From: a virus
IMG/VR virus record: IMGVR_UViG_3300045960_000114
Coordinates: 121,266-185,265 of that record
Strand: one strand, 5' to 3'
Length of the DNA: 64,000 nucleotides
Shown: in pieces, positions 1-31,002 of the stretch
How the letters are laid out: every line of letters starts with the position of its first letter
Position numbering within the stretch: the first letter of the stretch is position 1
The notes under the pieces: generated by a model
Seen by the model: only the letters and a program-made list of their open reading frames with translations
Database searches by the model: none
What the model was told of the DNA's origin: nothing
Translations under genes and position numbers: made by a program

Positions 1-222
1 CACCGCGATACGACCGGCGAGGTGCACACACGGCACGACAACCATGCACGAGCTACCGCCGCGCGGTTCTTGCAGATTGAGAACCGCGTGACGGAACTCG
101 AAGGAAGAGTTGCTAACCTGCCCACGAATCTACCTGGTCGGCTCATTGAGCTGAGAAACAGGATCGAAAGGCTCGAGCCCCGCTCAGAAAGCGGGCAACA
201 AAACGAAGGAGGGACGTCTTAA
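1..222 (+). CDS. Hypothetical protein, 5'-partial, coiled coil
   Basis: The reading frame is open from the first base and stops at 220-222. A GTG at 22 is the only start-like codon in the visible part and has no clear ribosome binding site, so the true start is probably upstream of the window. The visible part has heptad-like spacing of Leu, Ile and Val between charged residues (residues about 15-50 counted from the GTG), suggesting a short coiled coil, then a polar tail. It ends immediately before the ATG of the E2-like gene and may belong to the same transcription unit. No family recognised. Confidence 0.55.
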   Translation, partial: HRDTTGEVHTRHDNHARATAARFLQIENRVTELEGRVANLPTNLPGRLIELRNRIERLEPRSESGQQNEGGTS

Positions 223-936
223 ATGGCGGTTCCCGCACAACAACAGCGGCGTCGGATCGTCGTTCAGAATGGACTCGTTCTGATGGAGCTGGTGACGTTG
301 GAGAAGGTCGGCTCCCTCGGTGACTGGATGAACAAGGTACTGGAGTCGTCGCCCTCGCCCAGCAAGTTGCTTCCGCTCGACTGCGTGGACAACTTCTCCC
401 TGCGGCGCAAGGACACGACGCACCGCCGGATCTACGTGACATACATGCACCCCCGGATGCAGACGTTCCGCTTCCGTGGCGACCGCGCGAACGCGCAGGC
501 ACAGCAGTACGAACTGAGCTGGCCGCACACCCTCTGGTGGTTCGTGTTCTCGAACCAGCAGTTGAACGGCCTGTACCTGACCGCCACGAAGGTCTCACCG
601 TACGAGGTTCCGAACTACATGGACCTCGACTTGTTCTGGCTGCCCTGTCCGAATCAGTACCCTGAGGGTCACTTCTGCCTCGGTAACCTGAGCACGGACA
701 TCTCGTGGCCGGACTGGCGGCGCGTCAATGTCCTGCGCAATGATGTACTGTCGTCGAACTGGAACACCGACCTGATCCCGAATCTGTCCGGGTTCCCGTT
801 CAGCTCCATCCCGGAGTGGGCGGAGCAGTCGAGCCGCAAGCCGGAGCTCTGGAAGGAGCTTCCGTTCAAGCCGTACGTACACCCCACGTACCGGAAGATG
901 TGCGACTACCTGATGGGAGTGGGAGGCCGAGAGTAG
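223..936 (+). CDS. E2-like (UBC-fold) protein, PRTRC protein B type
   Basis: Likely a ubiquitin-conjugating (E2)-like protein that would take an activated ubiquitin-like modifier from the E1-like enzyme encoded downstream. The 237-residue product has a WWFVF strand (about 105-109), then the segment LPCPNQYPEGHFCLGNLS (140-157). This matches the Pro-Asn plus Cys-Leu-Gly pattern around the active-site cysteine of prokaryotic E2 families, including PRTRC system protein B; Cys152 is the candidate catalytic thiol. It starts one base after the preceding stop with GGAGG upstream, and is followed by a small helical gene, a JAMM peptidase and an E1. Assignment is by motif and neighbourhood; no alignment was run. 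An inactive E2 fold is the main alternative. Confidence 0.72.
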   Translation: MAVPAQQQRRRIVVQNGLVLMELVTLEKVGSLGDWMNKVLESSPSPSKLLPLDCVDNFSLRRKDTTHRRIYVTYMHPRMQTFRFRGDRANAQAQQYELSWPHTLWWFVFSNQQLNGLYLTATKVSPYEVPNYMDLDLFWLPCPNQYPEGHFCLGNLSTDISWPDWRRVNVLRNDVLSSNWNTDLIPNLSGFPFSSIPEWAEQSSRKPELWKELPFKPYVHPTYRKMCDYLMGVGGRE

Positions 937-937
937 C

Positions 938-1249
938 ATGGCTACGAAAGTCGAAGACGAGAAGTTGATGCAGCAGCTGATCGACGCGCTGGTGGCTATG
1001 CCTCCGGGCAAGATCCAGAGCATCCCCGAGATCATGGGTCAGTTCATGACCATGTCCCGGGAGAGCCTGGTTACGTGGGCTGGGCGGCCCGAGCAGGTGA
1101 TGGCCGCCCAGTTCATGGCCTATCTCAAAGGCCACGGCATGCTGACGGAAGTGCTGGAGTCGAAGTTCGATTCCTCGTTCAAGGTCATGACGGACGCAAT
1201 GGCGCTGTGTCCGTCAAAGGCGAGCAGAGTCTCGGAGGGAGGCCACTAA
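938..1249 (+). CDS. Small helical protein inside the E2/JAMM/E1 cassette
   Basis: A 103-residue protein encoded one base after the E2-like gene and three bases before the JAMM gene, so almost certainly co-translated with them. The sequence looks all-helical and Met-rich, and does not resemble a beta-grasp ubiquitin-like fold. It ends in Ser-Glu-Gly-Gly-His, so a di-glycine lies one residue from the C-terminus. That is the kind of tail a JAMM peptidase could trim to Gly-Gly, but the match may be chance. It could be a substrate, adaptor or regulator of the cassette. No family recognised. Confidence 0.82.
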   Translation: MATKVEDEKLMQQLIDALVAMPPGKIQSIPEIMGQFMTMSRESLVTWAGRPEQVMAAQFMAYLKGHGMLTEVLESKFDSSFKVMTDAMALCPSKASRVSEGGH

Positions 1250-1252
1250 GGG

Positions 1253-2542
1253 ATGTTTCCCATCATTCAGGTGAGCAAGGAGATGAAGGACTCCGATATC
1301 CCGCAGGAGAATTGTTATCTCATCGGGTCCAACGGGGTCTTCAAGCAGGTCGTCAACGAGTTCTACAGCGTCCGGGTGAAGAACGGATCACTCCCGGATC
1401 TGCAGGAACTCAAGGAAGACGTCGAACTCCACGTGACGCGGCTGCCCCAGCGCATCCTCGACCACGTGCACGCGTTCTTCCGCGCCGTGAACGACAAACA
1501 CAAGGGGGAGGCTGTTGTCCTCCTCATGTACCATCCCACGGACAAAAGGTGGATCGTCAAGATCCCCCCGCAGGACACAAAGGGGATGAGCGTCCACTAC
1601 GATCTGGATAAGGGCGACGCCCTCATCTGGATTCCCTCGAACGGTAAGGAAGAGATGACCTTGGTACATAACCAGCGGGAAGCCCCGCCGGAAGGTATCA
1701 AGGATTTCAGGCTCTTCGGGTCGATACACAGCCACTGTGACGCCGGCGCGTTTCACAGTGGTACGGATGACAAGGACGAGTTCTGTTTCGACGGCCTCCA
1801 CATCACGTTGGGGCACGTCAGCAAGAATCCGCCCGACATCAGTTGCCGGTGGATGTTAGCTGGCCAGTGGTGGAAAGCGGAAGCGAGCGGCTGCATTGCG
1901 TTCGACCACGCGGCACCGAAGGTGGACGACCGCTGGATGGATCGCGTAAGCGAGGTGAAGTATTCGCCCGCTGTCCAGACCTGGGTGTCCCCGCCATCGG
2001 GTACCGGGTTCGATTCGCCCATGAGCAGGCATCCGTACGATGGCAATGGGTACGGGTACAGCGGGTACGAAGGACCTGGGAGTCACGACGACCCAAAATC
2101 ACAAACCCCCACACAGGCGGGCGGCGGAAGCGCAGGAGGAAGCACAAGCGGGACGACAAATCCTGCTACCTCCTCGACTAATACGCCGGATGTGGGGGAA
2201 GATGACACACCGCCGGTGTACGAACTGTTCGCTCGGTACGAGGACGTTACTGAGCACGCAACACTCACCAGTAAGGAACTGTCCATCATCCAGTTGTGCG
2301 AGGACGACCCGCAGCTCCTGTCGTTCATGGAGACGTTGAGTGAGGAGGAACTGAAGCGGTTGCTGACTACTCACGAACTGTTCGACAAGTTCATGGAGGA
2401 GGCGTCGATCGACTTCATCGCACGCAAGCAGGCTGAAGGCGATGGTTCAGGCAAGACGGATATCGACGGCAAGCGGCTTGCCGATCTGATCGAAGAGGAG
2501 AAGGAAGCGCAAAAGGAAGGGGAGGTACTCGGGAGTGTTTGA
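1253..2542 (+). CDS. JAMM/MPN (JAB) metallopeptidase with acidic C-terminal extension
   Basis: Predicted zinc isopeptidase that would process or remove a ubiquitin-like modifier. The JAMM motif HxHx7SxxD is complete: His159-Ser-His161, Ser169 and Asp172. Glu86 on an upstream strand (HKGEAVVLL) is a candidate for the catalytic glutamate. After the MPN domain (about 60-215) come a Gly/Ser/Thr-rich low-complexity linker (about 255-315) and an acidic helical domain (about 325-429), giving 429 residues, much longer than a bare JAB domain. PRTRC modules also carry a JAB-type protein next to E2 and ThiF. The start ATG follows the previous stop closely and the end overlaps the E1-like gene by 8 bases. 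Confidence 0.85.
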   Translation: MFPIIQVSKEMKDSDIPQENCYLIGSNGVFKQVVNEFYSVRVKNGSLPDLQELKEDVELHVTRLPQRILDHVHAFFRAVNDKHKGEAVVLLMYHPTDKRWIVKIPPQDTKGMSVHYDLDKGDALIWIPSNGKEEMTLVHNQREAPPEGIKDFRLFGSIHSHCDAGAFHSGTDDKDEFCFDGLHITLGHVSKNPPDISCRWMLAGQWWKAEASGCIAFDHAAPKVDDRWMDRVSEVKYSPAVQTWVSPPSGTGFDSPMSRHPYDGNGYGYSGYEGPGSHDDPKSQTPTQAGGGSAGGSTSGTTNPATSSTNTPDVGEDDTPPVYELFARYEDVTEHATLTSKELSIIQLCEDDPQLLSFMETLSEEELKRLLTTHELFDKFMEEASIDFIARKQAEGDGSGKTDIDGKRLADLIEEEKEAQKEGEVLGSV

Positions 2543-3311
2543 ACCCAAAACTGTAGCGGTGGTGGGTTGCGGGGGGATCGGCTCATGGCTGATCCCTCCG
2601 CTCGTACGATACTTGGCGTCGGAGGACTACGACGGGGAGATAATCCTCTTCGACGGCGACAAGTACGAGGAAGGGAACGTTTGCAGGCAGGCGTTCCCCA
2701 TGCGCTGTATGGGCATGAACAAGGCGGAAGCCATGCGTGACCGCATCCTCGATGACCTGCCACACGTGCTGGTTACGGCTAACAGCCAGTACATCAGCAA
2801 GGAGACGGCTGGGATGGCCATGCGCGAGCATGGCGTGTGCTTCGCCTGCGTGGACAACCACCCGGCGCGTGCACATCTGGCCCGGCAGTGTGAGTCATTG
2901 AAGAACGGACTGTTGATCTCTCCAGCAAACGAGAAGTATGACGGCAACGTCTGCGCGTACCTGAGAGAGAATGGGAAGGAGTCCACAGAGCACCTCCTCA
3001 ACCGTCACCCGGAAATTGCGGCGAAGACCGAGGGTGACCGTGGAGCGGGCTGTGAGGCTCTTACTGCGGCAGGCGAGACGCAGCTGATGTTGGCCAATCT
3101 GTATGCGGCTACGACTGCGATGGGTGTGTTCTGGAACCTGTACAACCAGGGCATGCGCATGGAGAAGGGTACTAAGCTGACTGAGAAAGCGCAGGAAACC
3201 TTCTTCGACATCCGTACGTTGCAGGCGAATACCGTGTTCGCACCGAAAGGAGGCGTACATGCAGCTAGCCCCGATATGCCTGTCGTCGCTATTCCTGCTG
3301 GATCCGCATAG
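2535..3311 (+). CDS. E1-like / ThiF-family adenylating enzyme
   Basis: ATP-dependent activator of a ubiquitin-like protein. The N-terminal Rossmann motif GCGGIGS is at 11-17. An FDGDKYEEGNVCRQ stretch (39-52) gives the Asp and the Asn..Arg-Gln contacts to ATP, and CVDNHPAR (105-112) carries the adenylation aspartate Asp107. Cys173 in GAGCEALT lies where PRTRC-type ThiF proteins have a cysteine followed by a helical segment, and is a candidate thioester site. At 258 residues it matches single-domain E1-like proteins. The GTG start at 2535 overlaps the JAMM stop; this coupling and the E2-like neighbour argue for protein tagging rather than thiamine or molybdopterin synthesis. Confidence 0.88.
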   Translation: MFEPKTVAVVGCGGIGSWLIPPLVRYLASEDYDGEIILFDGDKYEEGNVCRQAFPMRCMGMNKAEAMRDRILDDLPHVLVTANSQYISKETAGMAMREHGVCFACVDNHPARAHLARQCESLKNGLLISPANEKYDGNVCAYLRENGKESTEHLLNRHPEIAAKTEGDRGAGCEALTAAGETQLMLANLYAATTAMGVFWNLYNQGMRMEKGTKLTEKAQETFFDIRTLQANTVFAPKGGVHAASPDMPVVAIPAGSA

Positions 3312-17009: not shown

Positions 17010-17653
17010 TTGCCCTTGAGTAGTGCCGTCTGGATGTTCTGTTCGCCGCTGGGCAGTGTGCCGCGAATGGCGTCCTCCAGATCAGCGCACGTGTACATGG
17101 TATGGCCATAGAAGAGTGTGGCCAGTGAACACAGGGTGAAGTAGTGAAGATGCTCGCCGGGCCGGTAGTGCTTCCATTCGCGCTTGTAGGGGAACCAGCG
17201 CGGCCTGGCCGGGAAGGACACCAGGATCCACTTGGCTCGCTTGGCCAGGTGGGTGACGGCCTTGAAATCGGGGAAGTGTTCGAGCGAGTCGAAGAAGGTC
17301 ACGACGTCCCAATGCTCGTGGCCTTCCAGTGGCATTTCGCGGACGCCGTAGTCCGCGTGGTGGACGTCGTTGCCATATGCGTCGAAGCCGGCCTTCAGCG
17401 CCGCCTTCACGAAAGCACCATTCCCGTACCCGACGTCAAGCAGCTTGCCCTTCGGGCAGAATGACTTGAGGTAGCCCAGCCGAAGGTAGCTCATGGCCTC
17501 GGTGGTTGGGTACATGTCGTAGCGATTGTGGATGTAGTCTTTGTCGTAATGTGCGGTGACAGCCAGCGTGGACTGGTAGATGTGGTCACAGGCGCAACGC
17601 GACAGCCCGTCCAGCTCTTCAATGGGATGAGTGTGGCATACGGGGCAGATCAT
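17006..17653 (-). CDS. Class I SAM methyltransferase with N-terminal zinc ribbon
   Basis: A 215-residue protein. The ATG at 17653 has GGAGGG upstream; a longer frame starts in a region without a site. CPVC and a CAC pair form a zinc ribbon at the N-terminus. LLDVGYGNGAFVKAALKAGF (about 70-89) is SAM motif I, and DVVTFFDSLEHFPD fits motif IV of methyltransferases acting on sugars or small molecules. First gene of a minus-strand pair with the GT9-like gene, so a joint role in glycan methylation is plausible. Confidence 0.83.
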   Translation of the reverse strand: MICPVCHTHPIEELDGLSRCACDHIYQSTLAVTAHYDKDYIHNRYDMYPTTEAMSYLRLGYLKSFCPKGKLLDVGYGNGAFVKAALKAGFDAYGNDVHHADYGVREMPLEGHEHWDVVTFFDSLEHFPDFKAVTHLAKRAKWILVSFPARPRWFPYKREWKHYRPGEHLHYFTLCSLATLFYGHTMYTCADLEDAIRGTLPSGEQNIQTALLKGK

Positions 17654-17739
17654 CAGACAAACCCTCCAGTTCGGGACCATCATACAGAGTATTGATAGCC
17701 CCGTCCACACCTGGAGCCAGAAAAGAAACGGAGAGACAG

Positions 17740-18024
17740 ATGAGTCATTGTGCTTGGCATGTAAAGTTCCTCGAGGGTTCACCTGACTGTGATGACAAGC
17801 CAATTCGCATTCCAGGGGGTGTACGTGTTGTGTACGGGGGGAATTATATTGATCATACGCTTGCTGGAGAGACTGTTCGCCAGGTGGCGAAGCGGTGGCG
17901 TTGTTTCTTTTCTATACGCAGACGTTCGAGGTGTTTTGTAAATGAGCAGCCTTCCAACCGTAATTACAGACTTGAACCTGGGGACCGTTTGGAGTTCGTT
18001 CCACCTGGCGATTGTTGCCGATAA
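17740..18024 (+). CDS. ThiS/MoaD-like beta-grasp (ubiquitin-like) protein
   Basis: Ninety-four residues from the ATG at 17740. The order is that of sulfur-carrier and ubiquitin-like beta-grasp proteins: a hairpin (VRVVYGGNYIDHTL), a helix (GETVRQVAKRWRCFF), then CFVNEQPSNRNYRLEPGDRL, matching the ThiS/MoaD pattern VNG..V.....L..GDRLEF. The tail is VPPGDCCR, without terminal Gly-Gly, so it would need trimming or would act non-covalently. It is the only candidate modifier in the window for the E1/E2/JAMM set at 0.2-3.3 kb. Family by pattern; link to the cassette is inference. Confidence 0.6.
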   Translation: MSHCAWHVKFLEGSPDCDDKPIRIPGGVRVVYGGNYIDHTLAGETVRQVAKRWRCFFSIRRRSRCFVNEQPSNRNYRLEPGDRLEFVPPGDCCR

Positions 18025-18045
18025 CTCTTGATAACGGAGGTGATC

Positions 18046-18342
18046 ATGCGAGTTAGGTTCAATGTGCAGTTTGAAGGGGACTGGTTATATTTGGATTTAG
18101 AGATTCCTATTACTCCTTTCCCAGGGTTGGTTGTTTGGGAACTGCCGGGCTTTCCAGGCGAGCCGTTTTTTGTAAAGTCGGTCGACTACATGTTTAAGGG
18201 TGGTTACTCGACTGTTATGTACGGTCACGGTGACGATGAAGACGACGTCGAGTATCCCCCGTTATACGGCGAGTTTGCCAAGCGGCTGATTAACGCTGGC
18301 TGGCGATCTGGTATTGATACGGATCGGATAGAAATAACGTAA
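18046..18342 (+). CDS. Hypothetical protein, beta-rich
   Basis: Ninety-eight residues from the ATG at 18046 with ACGGAGGTGA upstream, 21 bases after the ThiS-like gene and so probably co-transcribed. Strand-rich first 60 residues, an acidic loop (GDDEDDVEYPP) and a short helix. It could be a partner of the ThiS-like protein, but nothing in the sequence shows this. Confidence 0.8.
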   Translation: MRVRFNVQFEGDWLYLDLEIPITPFPGLVVWELPGFPGEPFFVKSVDYMFKGGYSTVMYGHGDDEDDVEYPPLYGEFAKRLINAGWRSGIDTDRIEIT

Positions 18343-29128: not shown

Positions 29129-29253
29129 TTTCATAGGGAAATGGTATCTTTTTCTGTAATATTTGCACAGGAAAATTAAGGCGCAGGCGTGTAAGGGTTT
29201 GTGAGAAAAACTTTTTGGTTTCACGCATACTCTTTCATCTGGACGAGGTTCTA

Positions 29254-29337
29254 CCTTCGAATAAGATGGATGGTCTCGCGGCGAGTGCCGACGAACGCCA
29301 ACCAAAGCGGACTACCTGGGTCCGCTCCATTCGAAGG
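29254..29337 (+). promoter_or_regulatory. Structured leader that can hide the nrdJ ribosome binding site
   Basis: A perfect 9-bp stem CCTTCGAAT/ATTCGAAGG (29254-29262 with 29329-29337) encloses CTCG/CGAG and a perfect 7-bp hairpin AGCGGAC/GTCCGCT (29306-29312 with 29320-29326). The 3' arm of the closing stem includes the AAGG of the ribosome binding site before the ATG at 29347, so folding would block translation. Riboswitch-like; no B12-box sequence was recognised. Confidence 0.45.
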
Positions 29338-29346
29338 GGGTCTCAA

Positions 29347-31002
29347 ATGCAAACGCTGGAAGCCGCTCCGTCAGTATCGACATGTGAATTCGGAGCGCTG
29401 GCCAAGGGTATCTATGAGCACAAATACTCTTGGTTGAAAGATGACCAAACGAAGGAAAGCTGGCCTGAAACGTGTCGGAGAGTGGTAACCCACGTAGTAC
29501 ATCCGTACCTGCCCGCCTTGGCCGATCCCATCTACGAGTTGCTGGTCCAACGGAAGTTCATGCCGGGCGGTCGCTATCTTTACGCCGCCGGAAGGAAGTT
29601 CCATCAGGTCAACAACTGCTTCTTATTCGACGTGGAGGACAGCAGGGAAGGCTGGGCCGGCTTGATGTTCCGCGCCACGCAGGCGCTGATGACGGGCGGT
29701 GGCATTGGGACGGTGTACAGCAAGTTGAGGGCTGAAGGCGAACCAGTGAAGGGCATGGGCGGGCAGTCGACGGGTCCAATTTCGCTGATGAACATGGTCA
29801 ACGAAGCCGGACGACACATCATGCAGGGCGGCTCGCGGCGTGCAGCGGTATGGGCTGGACTCCACTGGAACCACAAGGACTGCCACAAGTTCGTCCACCT
29901 GAAGGACTGGCCGGAATTCGTCAAGGCGCGCAAGTCAGAGGACTTCAACTTCCCAGCTGCCATGGACGGCACGAACATCAGTGTCATTCTGGATGATGCC
30001 TTCTTCACCGCCTACAACGACAAATCGAACCCACAACACCAACAGGCGTACGACATTTATTGGGACGTGGTGTGGCAGATGTGTCGTTCAGGTGAGCCTG
30101 GATTCTCAGTCGACGTCGGCCCGAATGCTGGTGAACATCTTCGCAACGCATGCACGGAAATAACCAGTTCGGATGACAATGACGTCTGCAACCTAGGCAG
30201 TATTAACCTGGCCCGGATTGAGAGCAAAGAAGAGATGGCAAGGGCGGTCGAGCTCTCGACCGCCTTTCTCATTTGCGGCACCCTCTATTCGAAGGTGCCA
30301 TTCCCCGAAGTGGCCGACGCGCGTGAGCGCAACCGCCGGCTCGGCCTTGGCCTCATGGGCATCCATGAGTGGTTGCTTGTCCGCGGAAAGCGCTACGGCG
30401 CCGATGAGGAGTTGGGCACGTGGATGTCTGAGTACGTCAAGTCGGATGAATATGCCGCTAACTACTGCAAGCAGCTGAACATCTCCGTCCCGAAGAAGAC
30501 GCGTGCGATCGCCCCGACAGGCACCATCAGCATCCTGGCTGAGACCACGTCCGGAATCGAGCCGATCTTCTGCGTGGCGTACCTGCGTCGTTACCTCAAG
30601 GGACGCCAGTGGCACGCGCAGTACGCCATTGATAACACGGCCCGCCGCCTGATCGAACGCGGTATCCCGGTCGAGCAGATCGAGGATGCGTACGAGCTGG
30701 CAAAGGACGTGGAGCGCCGGGTGTCGTTCCAGGCGTGGATGCAGCGGTATGTCGACCACGCGATCAGCAGCACCATCAACCTGCCGGAGTGGGGCTCCGA
30801 GTACAATAACGGCGACACGGTTCGGCCCTTCGGCGAGATGCTGGTCAAGTACCTGCCGGGGCTTCGCGGCGTGACGGCATACCCGGATGGGTCGCGTGGT
30901 GGCCAGCCTTTGACGCCCGTGAGCTACAAGGCAGCCATTAAGAAGGAAGGCGTGGAGTTTGTGGAAAATACGAACTGCACGTCAGGGTCGTGCGGCGTTT
31001 GA
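29347..31002 (+). CDS. nrdJ: Class II (adenosylcobalamin-dependent) ribonucleotide reductase
   Basis: Converts ribonucleotides to deoxyribonucleotides for phage DNA synthesis without oxygen dependence. Using the ATG at 29347 (AAGGGGG upstream) the protein has 551 residues. VNNCFLF holds one redox cysteine (about Cys91). NACTEI gives the active-site Asn267, Cys269 and Glu271, CNLGSINLA the partner cysteine (about 281), and APTGTISILAETTSGIEP the phosphate-binding loop. The C-terminal CTSGSCGV supplies the swinging cysteine pair. No NrdB-like gene is nearby, consistent with a B12 enzyme, so the host must supply cobalamin. The leader suggests translational control, and a terminator closes the unit. 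Confidence 0.93.
   Translation: MQTLEAAPSVSTCEFGALAKGIYEHKYSWLKDDQTKESWPETCRRVVTHVVHPYLPALADPIYELLVQRKFMPGGRYLYAAGRKFHQVNNCFLFDVEDSREGWAGLMFRATQALMTGGGIGTVYSKLRAEGEPVKGMGGQSTGPISLMNMVNEAGRHIMQGGSRRAAVWAGLHWNHKDCHKFVHLKDWPEFVKARKSEDFNFPAAMDGTNISVILDDAFFTAYNDKSNPQHQQAYDIYWDVVWQMCRSGEPGFSVDVGPNAGEHLRNACTEITSSDDNDVCNLGSINLARIESKEEMARAVELSTAFLICGTLYSKVPFPEVADARERNRRLGLGLMGIHEWLLVRGKRYGADEELGTWMSEYVKSDEYAANYCKQLNISVPKKTRAIAPTGTISILAETTSGIEPIFCVAYLRRYLKGRQWHAQYAIDNTARRLIERGIPVEQIEDAYELAKDVERRVSFQAWMQRYVDHAISSTINLPEWGSEYNNGDTVRPFGEMLVKYLPGLRGVTAYPDGSRGGQPLTPVSYKAAIKKEGVEFVENTNCTSGSCGV

Follow-up and report, generated by a model that had tools for sequence, protein, structure and literature searches.

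A tail-less ThiS/MoaD-like ubiquitin-like paralog in a virus whose E1/E2/JAMM cassette has its own modifier

The stretch of DNA analysed here (henceforth the window) comprises 64,000 nucleotides, positions 121,266 to 185,265 of a 185,265-base virus record, and its edge cuts an operon encoding an E1/E2/JAMM cassette (Table 1). About 14.4 kb from the cassette (window 223-3311), and in the same element as first described, a small gene beginning at position 17740 stands alone. The initial annotation had proposed its product as the missing ubiquitin-like (Ubl) modifier of the cassette. The 17740 open reading frame is a genuine gene: it is intact, has a Shine-Dalgarno sequence and is closely followed by a co-directional gene whose ATG, 25 bases past the 17740 stop codon, has its own GGAGGTGATC. 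It belongs to a series of small genes that have no family match. A methyltransferase gene on the opposite strand (Methyltransf_23 match, E = 8e-14) has its most likely start at 17653, so that about 86 bases would separate it from the divergent 17740 gene. The minus-strand segment 16137-17653 holds this methyltransferase gene and a 290-aa gene without identification, in a window where 65 of the 68 predicted genes lie on the plus strand. This minus-strand pair, together with the low-GC3 genes at 17740-18342, may constitute a small foreign insert.

Table 1. Features of the cassette operon and of the 17740 locus (window coordinates unless marked as record coordinates)
Feature	Position	Strand	Remarks
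In-operon Ubl, 69 aa	record 120435-120644 (window about -830 to -621)	+	outside the window
Coiled-coil gene, 244 aa	record 120753-121487; 3' end at window 1-222	+	between in-operon Ubl and E2
E2-like protein (Prok-E2_D relatives)	223-936	+	candidate active Cys152 in PNQYPEGHFCLG
103-aa cassette protein	938-1249	+	no family match
JAMM/Prok-JAB peptidase	1253-2542	+	E86, HSH 159-161, S169, D172
ThiF-type E1, 258-aa ORF	2535-3311	+	Cys173
Shine-Dalgarno-like GGAGAG	17727-17736	+	just 5' of ATG 17740; read from sequence
Tail-less ThiS/MoaD-like Ubl paralog gene, 94 aa	17740-18024	+	ATG to stop; protein with disordered N-terminus 1-25, beta-grasp 28-90 and tail VPPGDCCR
Next co-directional gene, 97 aa	18049-18342	+	no family match; GC3 0.53

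The 94-residue 17740 protein is a ThiS/MoaD-like beta-grasp protein, as its layout had led the initial annotation to propose, and by sequence it is a member of the Ubl family found with such cassettes. Pfam ThiS aligns with residues 53-89 at E = 0.0013, narrowly missing its curated cut-off, and a profile made from eight cassette Ubl domains, with 17740 excluded from the seed, recovers the protein at E = 2.8e-11 over profile positions 2-61 of 68, that is, all but the tail. Cassette Ubls from 13 further phage records match it at 26-37% identity in frame (E = 1e-5 to 1e-3), its domain identity to members of the family is 25-36%, and it is closer in sequence to these Ubls than to ThiS. An AlphaFold model, for which 15 cassette domains served as the input alignment, has a beta-grasp core with block-mean pLDDT of 85-94 across residues 31 to 90. 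The top structural match of this model is MoaD (1nvi; Z 9.3, rmsd 2.0, 66 residues), and its other neighbours include TtuB (Z 8.4) and Ras-binding domains (Z about 8). A sequence search against solved structures gave no significant match, and a PHROGs search gave none for either the 17740 protein or the in-operon Ubl. In the VNG motif, the Gly that nearly all family members keep is missing from the 17740 protein, a loss that is as compatible with decay as with repurposing.

When the complete record was queried with the 17740 protein, a second locus emerged at 120438-120620 (E = 3e-5). It lies within a gene 0.6 kb upstream of the first base of the window that encodes a Ubl (MVKIVFGGNS...VRVNGVTAGEDTTLRPNDVVEFIKQSGEKGC) with the C-terminus SGEKGC, and this gene is followed on the same strand by those for the coiled-coil protein, the E2-like protein, the 103-aa protein, the JAMM and the E1. 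Since this Ubl has a GEKG(C) tail and stands in line with E2, JAMM and E1, the cassette has its own modifier, and the in-operon protein is that modifier. Thus, the 17740 protein is related to the modifiers that E1/E2/JAMM cassettes use, as the initial annotation had sensed, but it is not the missing modifier of this one.

The cassette E1, the only ThiF-type match in the whole record (E = 2.6e-18), has PRTRC_ThiF as its best match (E = 1e-17, below the NCBIfam curated cut-off). Cys173 is kept in 65 or 66 of 66 viral E1s, as are a D, N, R, Q, K and D that we take to be the residues expected of ThiF/MoeB-type adenylation sites. The JAMM protein matches Prok-JAB (E = 1e-3) and PRTRC_A (E = 8e-9, likewise below the NCBIfam curated cut-off), and its motif E86, H159-S-H161, S169 and D172 is invariant in the first alignment. 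The E2-like protein itself has no Pfam match, while 15 of its 21 relatives match Prok-E2_D and the position of Cys152 is invariant in all 21. Its AlphaFold model (mean pLDDT 80) aligns mostly with ubiquitin E2s at modest Z (best 5.8). Foldseek returned nothing significant for this model, and E2 enzymes were top-ranked only by a second aligner that was confined to Foldseek's own candidates.

The phage cassette is a variant of the PRTRC/type-6d E1-E2-JAMM operons. As described by Iyer et al. (2006; PMC1779556), type 6d operons encode an E1, an E2, a JAB peptidase and an alpha-helical protein together with a small Ubl whose C-terminal Gly is conserved. The phage cassette likewise has separate E1, E2, JAB and small Ubl genes in one operon, its Ubl too having a conserved C-terminal Gly, and the best NCBIfam matches of its E1 and JAMM are PRTRC proteins, but it is phage-borne and carries the extra coiled-coil and 103-aa genes. 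Its Ubl has a terminal KG but matches no PRTRC model, and the Ubl family scores as ThiS-like. The E1 domain also matches PADLOC E1-E2 models (E = 3e-13), a likeness to type II CBASS Cap2/Cap3 and other anti-phage Ub-like systems. Unlike Cap2, an E1-E2 fusion, the E1 and E2 here are separate, phage-carried genes, and no cassette protein other than the E1 matches a PADLOC model.

In viral contigs, the family of the in-operon Ubl accompanies the cassette. Searching such contigs directly with the E1 gave no match; many of the cassette contigs were instead reached by alignments of distant E1 and JAMM proteins. A scan for the Ubl alone, which used alignment subset A7 because the diversity of Ubl alignment A4 precluded a pattern scan, yielded 45 viral loci. 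An E1 lies within the fetched flank of all 45 and a JAMM within that of 44, the lone exception (L211) starting at a contig end. The tail motif E[FY]x4-GxKG is found in 51 of 53 distinct Ubl domains, the exceptions being 17740 and the distant L044. At L044 8463-8921, two tandem Ubl domains that end in SQKAA rather than GxKG are encoded next to an E1 and a JAMM. Most family members have no residue after KG, 11 sequences have a Cys, and others have DG, F, YK, LL, VILTK, FEKMCFFY or 67 residues, the last being a Lys-rich extension in the cassette Ubl of L204. The L029 protein has three tandem Ubl domains, each with an SGxKG end, and SGRKG occurs internally among tandem Ubls. These variable post-KG residues and internal SGRKG motifs fit a cleavage step that would free a terminal KG, most simply carried out by the JAMM.

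Several loci depart from this layout. In L031-L042 and most of L169-L213 the Ubl directly follows the E1, and an E2 profile finds no E2 except in L037 and L207; these contigs have either a very different E2 or none. An E1-alignment scan of genome contigs gave mostly E1 or E1/E2/JAMM loci (Oscillospiraceae and others), without a hit to the cassette Ubl family within 6 kb. Vibrio phage D69 (OZ195729.1; L004 5391-6182) encodes a Ubl-like protein of three tandem repeats, each with a TGTKG tail; the repeats appear unlike the ThiS-like family. Genes for E2, JAMM and E1 come next, and all carry the annotation hypothetical. Salmonella phage Arash (OQ632216.1; L005 1519-4539), an isolated phage and hence a possible laboratory model, carries genes for an E2, a JAMM and an E1 of this type. 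The annotation of its E2 and E1 reads structural protein, and no Ubl was identified in that stretch.

Against this family rule, the 17740 protein stands out by its tail. It ends in LEFVPPGDCCR, with neither Gly-Gly, whose lack the initial annotation had correctly noted, nor GxKG, nor any KG dipeptide. Counted ungapped from the shared EF, its tail has eight residues, the same length as other family tails (VPPGDCCR versus IKQSGEKG or LKPAGKKG), with Arg in place of the terminal Gly and Cys in place of Lys. In this register DCCR, shifted by one, stands where other tails have GEKG, and the sole Gly lies four residues ahead of the terminal-Gly position. A frameshift concealing a GxKG tail was considered and rejected, as the other reading frames at the 3' end give no GxKG. 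Beyond the beta-grasp domain that it has in common with the cassette Ubls, the 17740 protein also differs from them in its missing VNG Gly, its place outside the operon, its Cys/Arg-rich body and its N-terminal extension. With no terminal Gly that can be aligned, the protein should not be activated by the E1, and any role that it has is probably non-covalent; among the alternatives raised in the initial annotation, a non-covalent role is the best supported, and the thiol-based linkage via CC finds no support.

The explanation that we favour, tentatively and at somewhat less than even chances, is that the 17740 protein is a diverged, tail-less and non-conjugatable Ubl paralog that docks non-covalently, serving as decoy, adaptor or regulator. 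Within the cassette, the in-operon Ubl would be trimmed after KG by the JAMM and activated at the exposed Gly by the E1, and the E2 would then pass it to its targets. The 17740 protein, having kept the beta-grasp body and lost the conjugation tail, should not normally be adenylated by the E1, and may instead dock on the Ubl-binding surface of the E1, E2 or JAMM, be it those of the phage itself or those of a host defence system.

The strongest rival, unlikely in our estimate yet to be taken seriously, is that 17740 is a decaying or passenger gene, a laterally acquired Ubl domain whose tail has degenerated and which now serves no purpose. Its composition points this way: GC3 is 0.43, whereas the 68 predicted genes of the window average 0.73 (sd 0.067) and the in-operon Ubl reaches 0.93, and the codon score of 17740 in frame is negative. 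Because this codon composition is foreign, it suggests that the gene was acquired rather than recently copied within the phage genome. A recent local duplication is unsupported, given the GC3 difference from the in-operon copy and a family tree that does not place 17740 (its join with the in-operon Ubl, 89/82, unites two long branches). Direct searches of phages and viral contigs gave no close relatives of 17740. When 50 other viral records were searched in full with a 17-row profile, 34 carried a cassette-type Ubl and one a possible second Ubl locus; a second copy is absent from the other 49, which is weak evidence as the records may be fragments. That single second locus (G001:19359-19550, within L101 5231-5698, that is, G001:19230-19697) is a weak match (E = 1.7e-4). 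It reads VNG...LRPLDVLVFIPPTAKR without GxKG; the cassette Ubl of that contig, a three-domain protein, is encoded about 20 kb away. The rarity of second copies and the joint loss of the GxKG tail and the VNG Gly fit a gene in decay. Against decay stand the intact reading frame with its good Shine-Dalgarno sequence and tightly following gene, and a beta-grasp core that is still confidently predicted; phages rarely keep useless genes for long.

It is improbable, though less so than the two readings that follow, that 17740 encodes a beta-grasp protein-binding domain whose job lies outside Ubl chemistry, host takeover being one example. Wide reuse of the fold, the alignment of the model with Ras-binding domains and the surrounding series of small genes that match no family would suit such a role, but the sequence similarity is specific to the cassette Ubl family. 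Another phage-encoded Ub-like protein is the lambda tail assembly protein I (PMC1779556), which like the 17740 protein has no thiamine or molybdopterin role. The lambda protein, however, is encoded beside tail genes and a JAB/NlpC peptidase and has retained a conserved Gly, and 17740 has neither.

We give slightly less credence to 17740 as a second conjugatable modifier, from which the JAMM or another peptidase would trim DCCR to leave ...FVPPG for activation by the cassette E1. The one Gly left in the tail, the post-Gly residues of other family members that need trimming and the single ThiF-type E1 of the record would allow this. Yet maturation by the JAMM, which the initial annotation had entertained, is unlikely to help: the Gly comes four residues too early in the ungapped register, Arg occupies the terminal position, the KG dipeptide is missing and the operon already has a dedicated Ubl.

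A role as a sulfur carrier for thiolation, in the manner of ThiS, MoaD or TtuB, is very improbable: MoaD and TtuB are the best structural neighbours, and VPPGDCC can be likened to the MoaD end (FPPVAGG) with Cys-Cys where Gly-Gly would be, but the protein as encoded has no C-terminal Gly to bear a thiocarboxylate, its sequence is nearer the cassette Ubls than ThiS, and it lacks partner synthase genes, with no MoaE or ThiG match anywhere in the 185-kb record although controls were detected (the host could supply both), in keeping with the earlier remark that no thiamine or molybdopterin genes lie nearby. Together with the single ThiF-type E1 of the record, this lends no support to a sulfur-carrier pathway distinct from the cassette.

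A phage that carries a full Ubl conjugation system and a dedicated tail-less docking Ubl would possess a natural competitive inhibitor, a speculative reading to which we assign a rather low probability. Were it true, the 17740 protein would tune the phage's own system or disarm a host E1/E2/JAMM defence. Binding of the 17740 protein to cassette enzymes would make it a natural phage Ubl decoy and a handle on regulation within, or conflict between, phage and bacterial Ubl systems. Of the two results, the firmer is the family of phage cassettes with its GxKG rule; the 17740 paralog by itself is a lead. The picture of the element is corrected: its cassette comes with a modifier of its own and belongs to a phage cassette family with a common GxKG-tailed, ThiS-like Ubl, and the rule tells experimenters which Ubl to purify and where processing is likely. 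An overview of jumbo phages (PMC7824862) makes no mention of an E1/E2/JAMM/Ubl cassette. Among the papers searched, largely those available without subscription, none pairs PRTRC with ubiquitin and phage, which is not proof of novelty.

Two further genes of the window have recognisable products. A ribonucleotide reductase large subunit with the C-terminal end TNCTSGSCGV is encoded at 29215-31002, and a 2618-aa protein encoded at 54130-61986 matches tail fibre and virion structural PHROGs.
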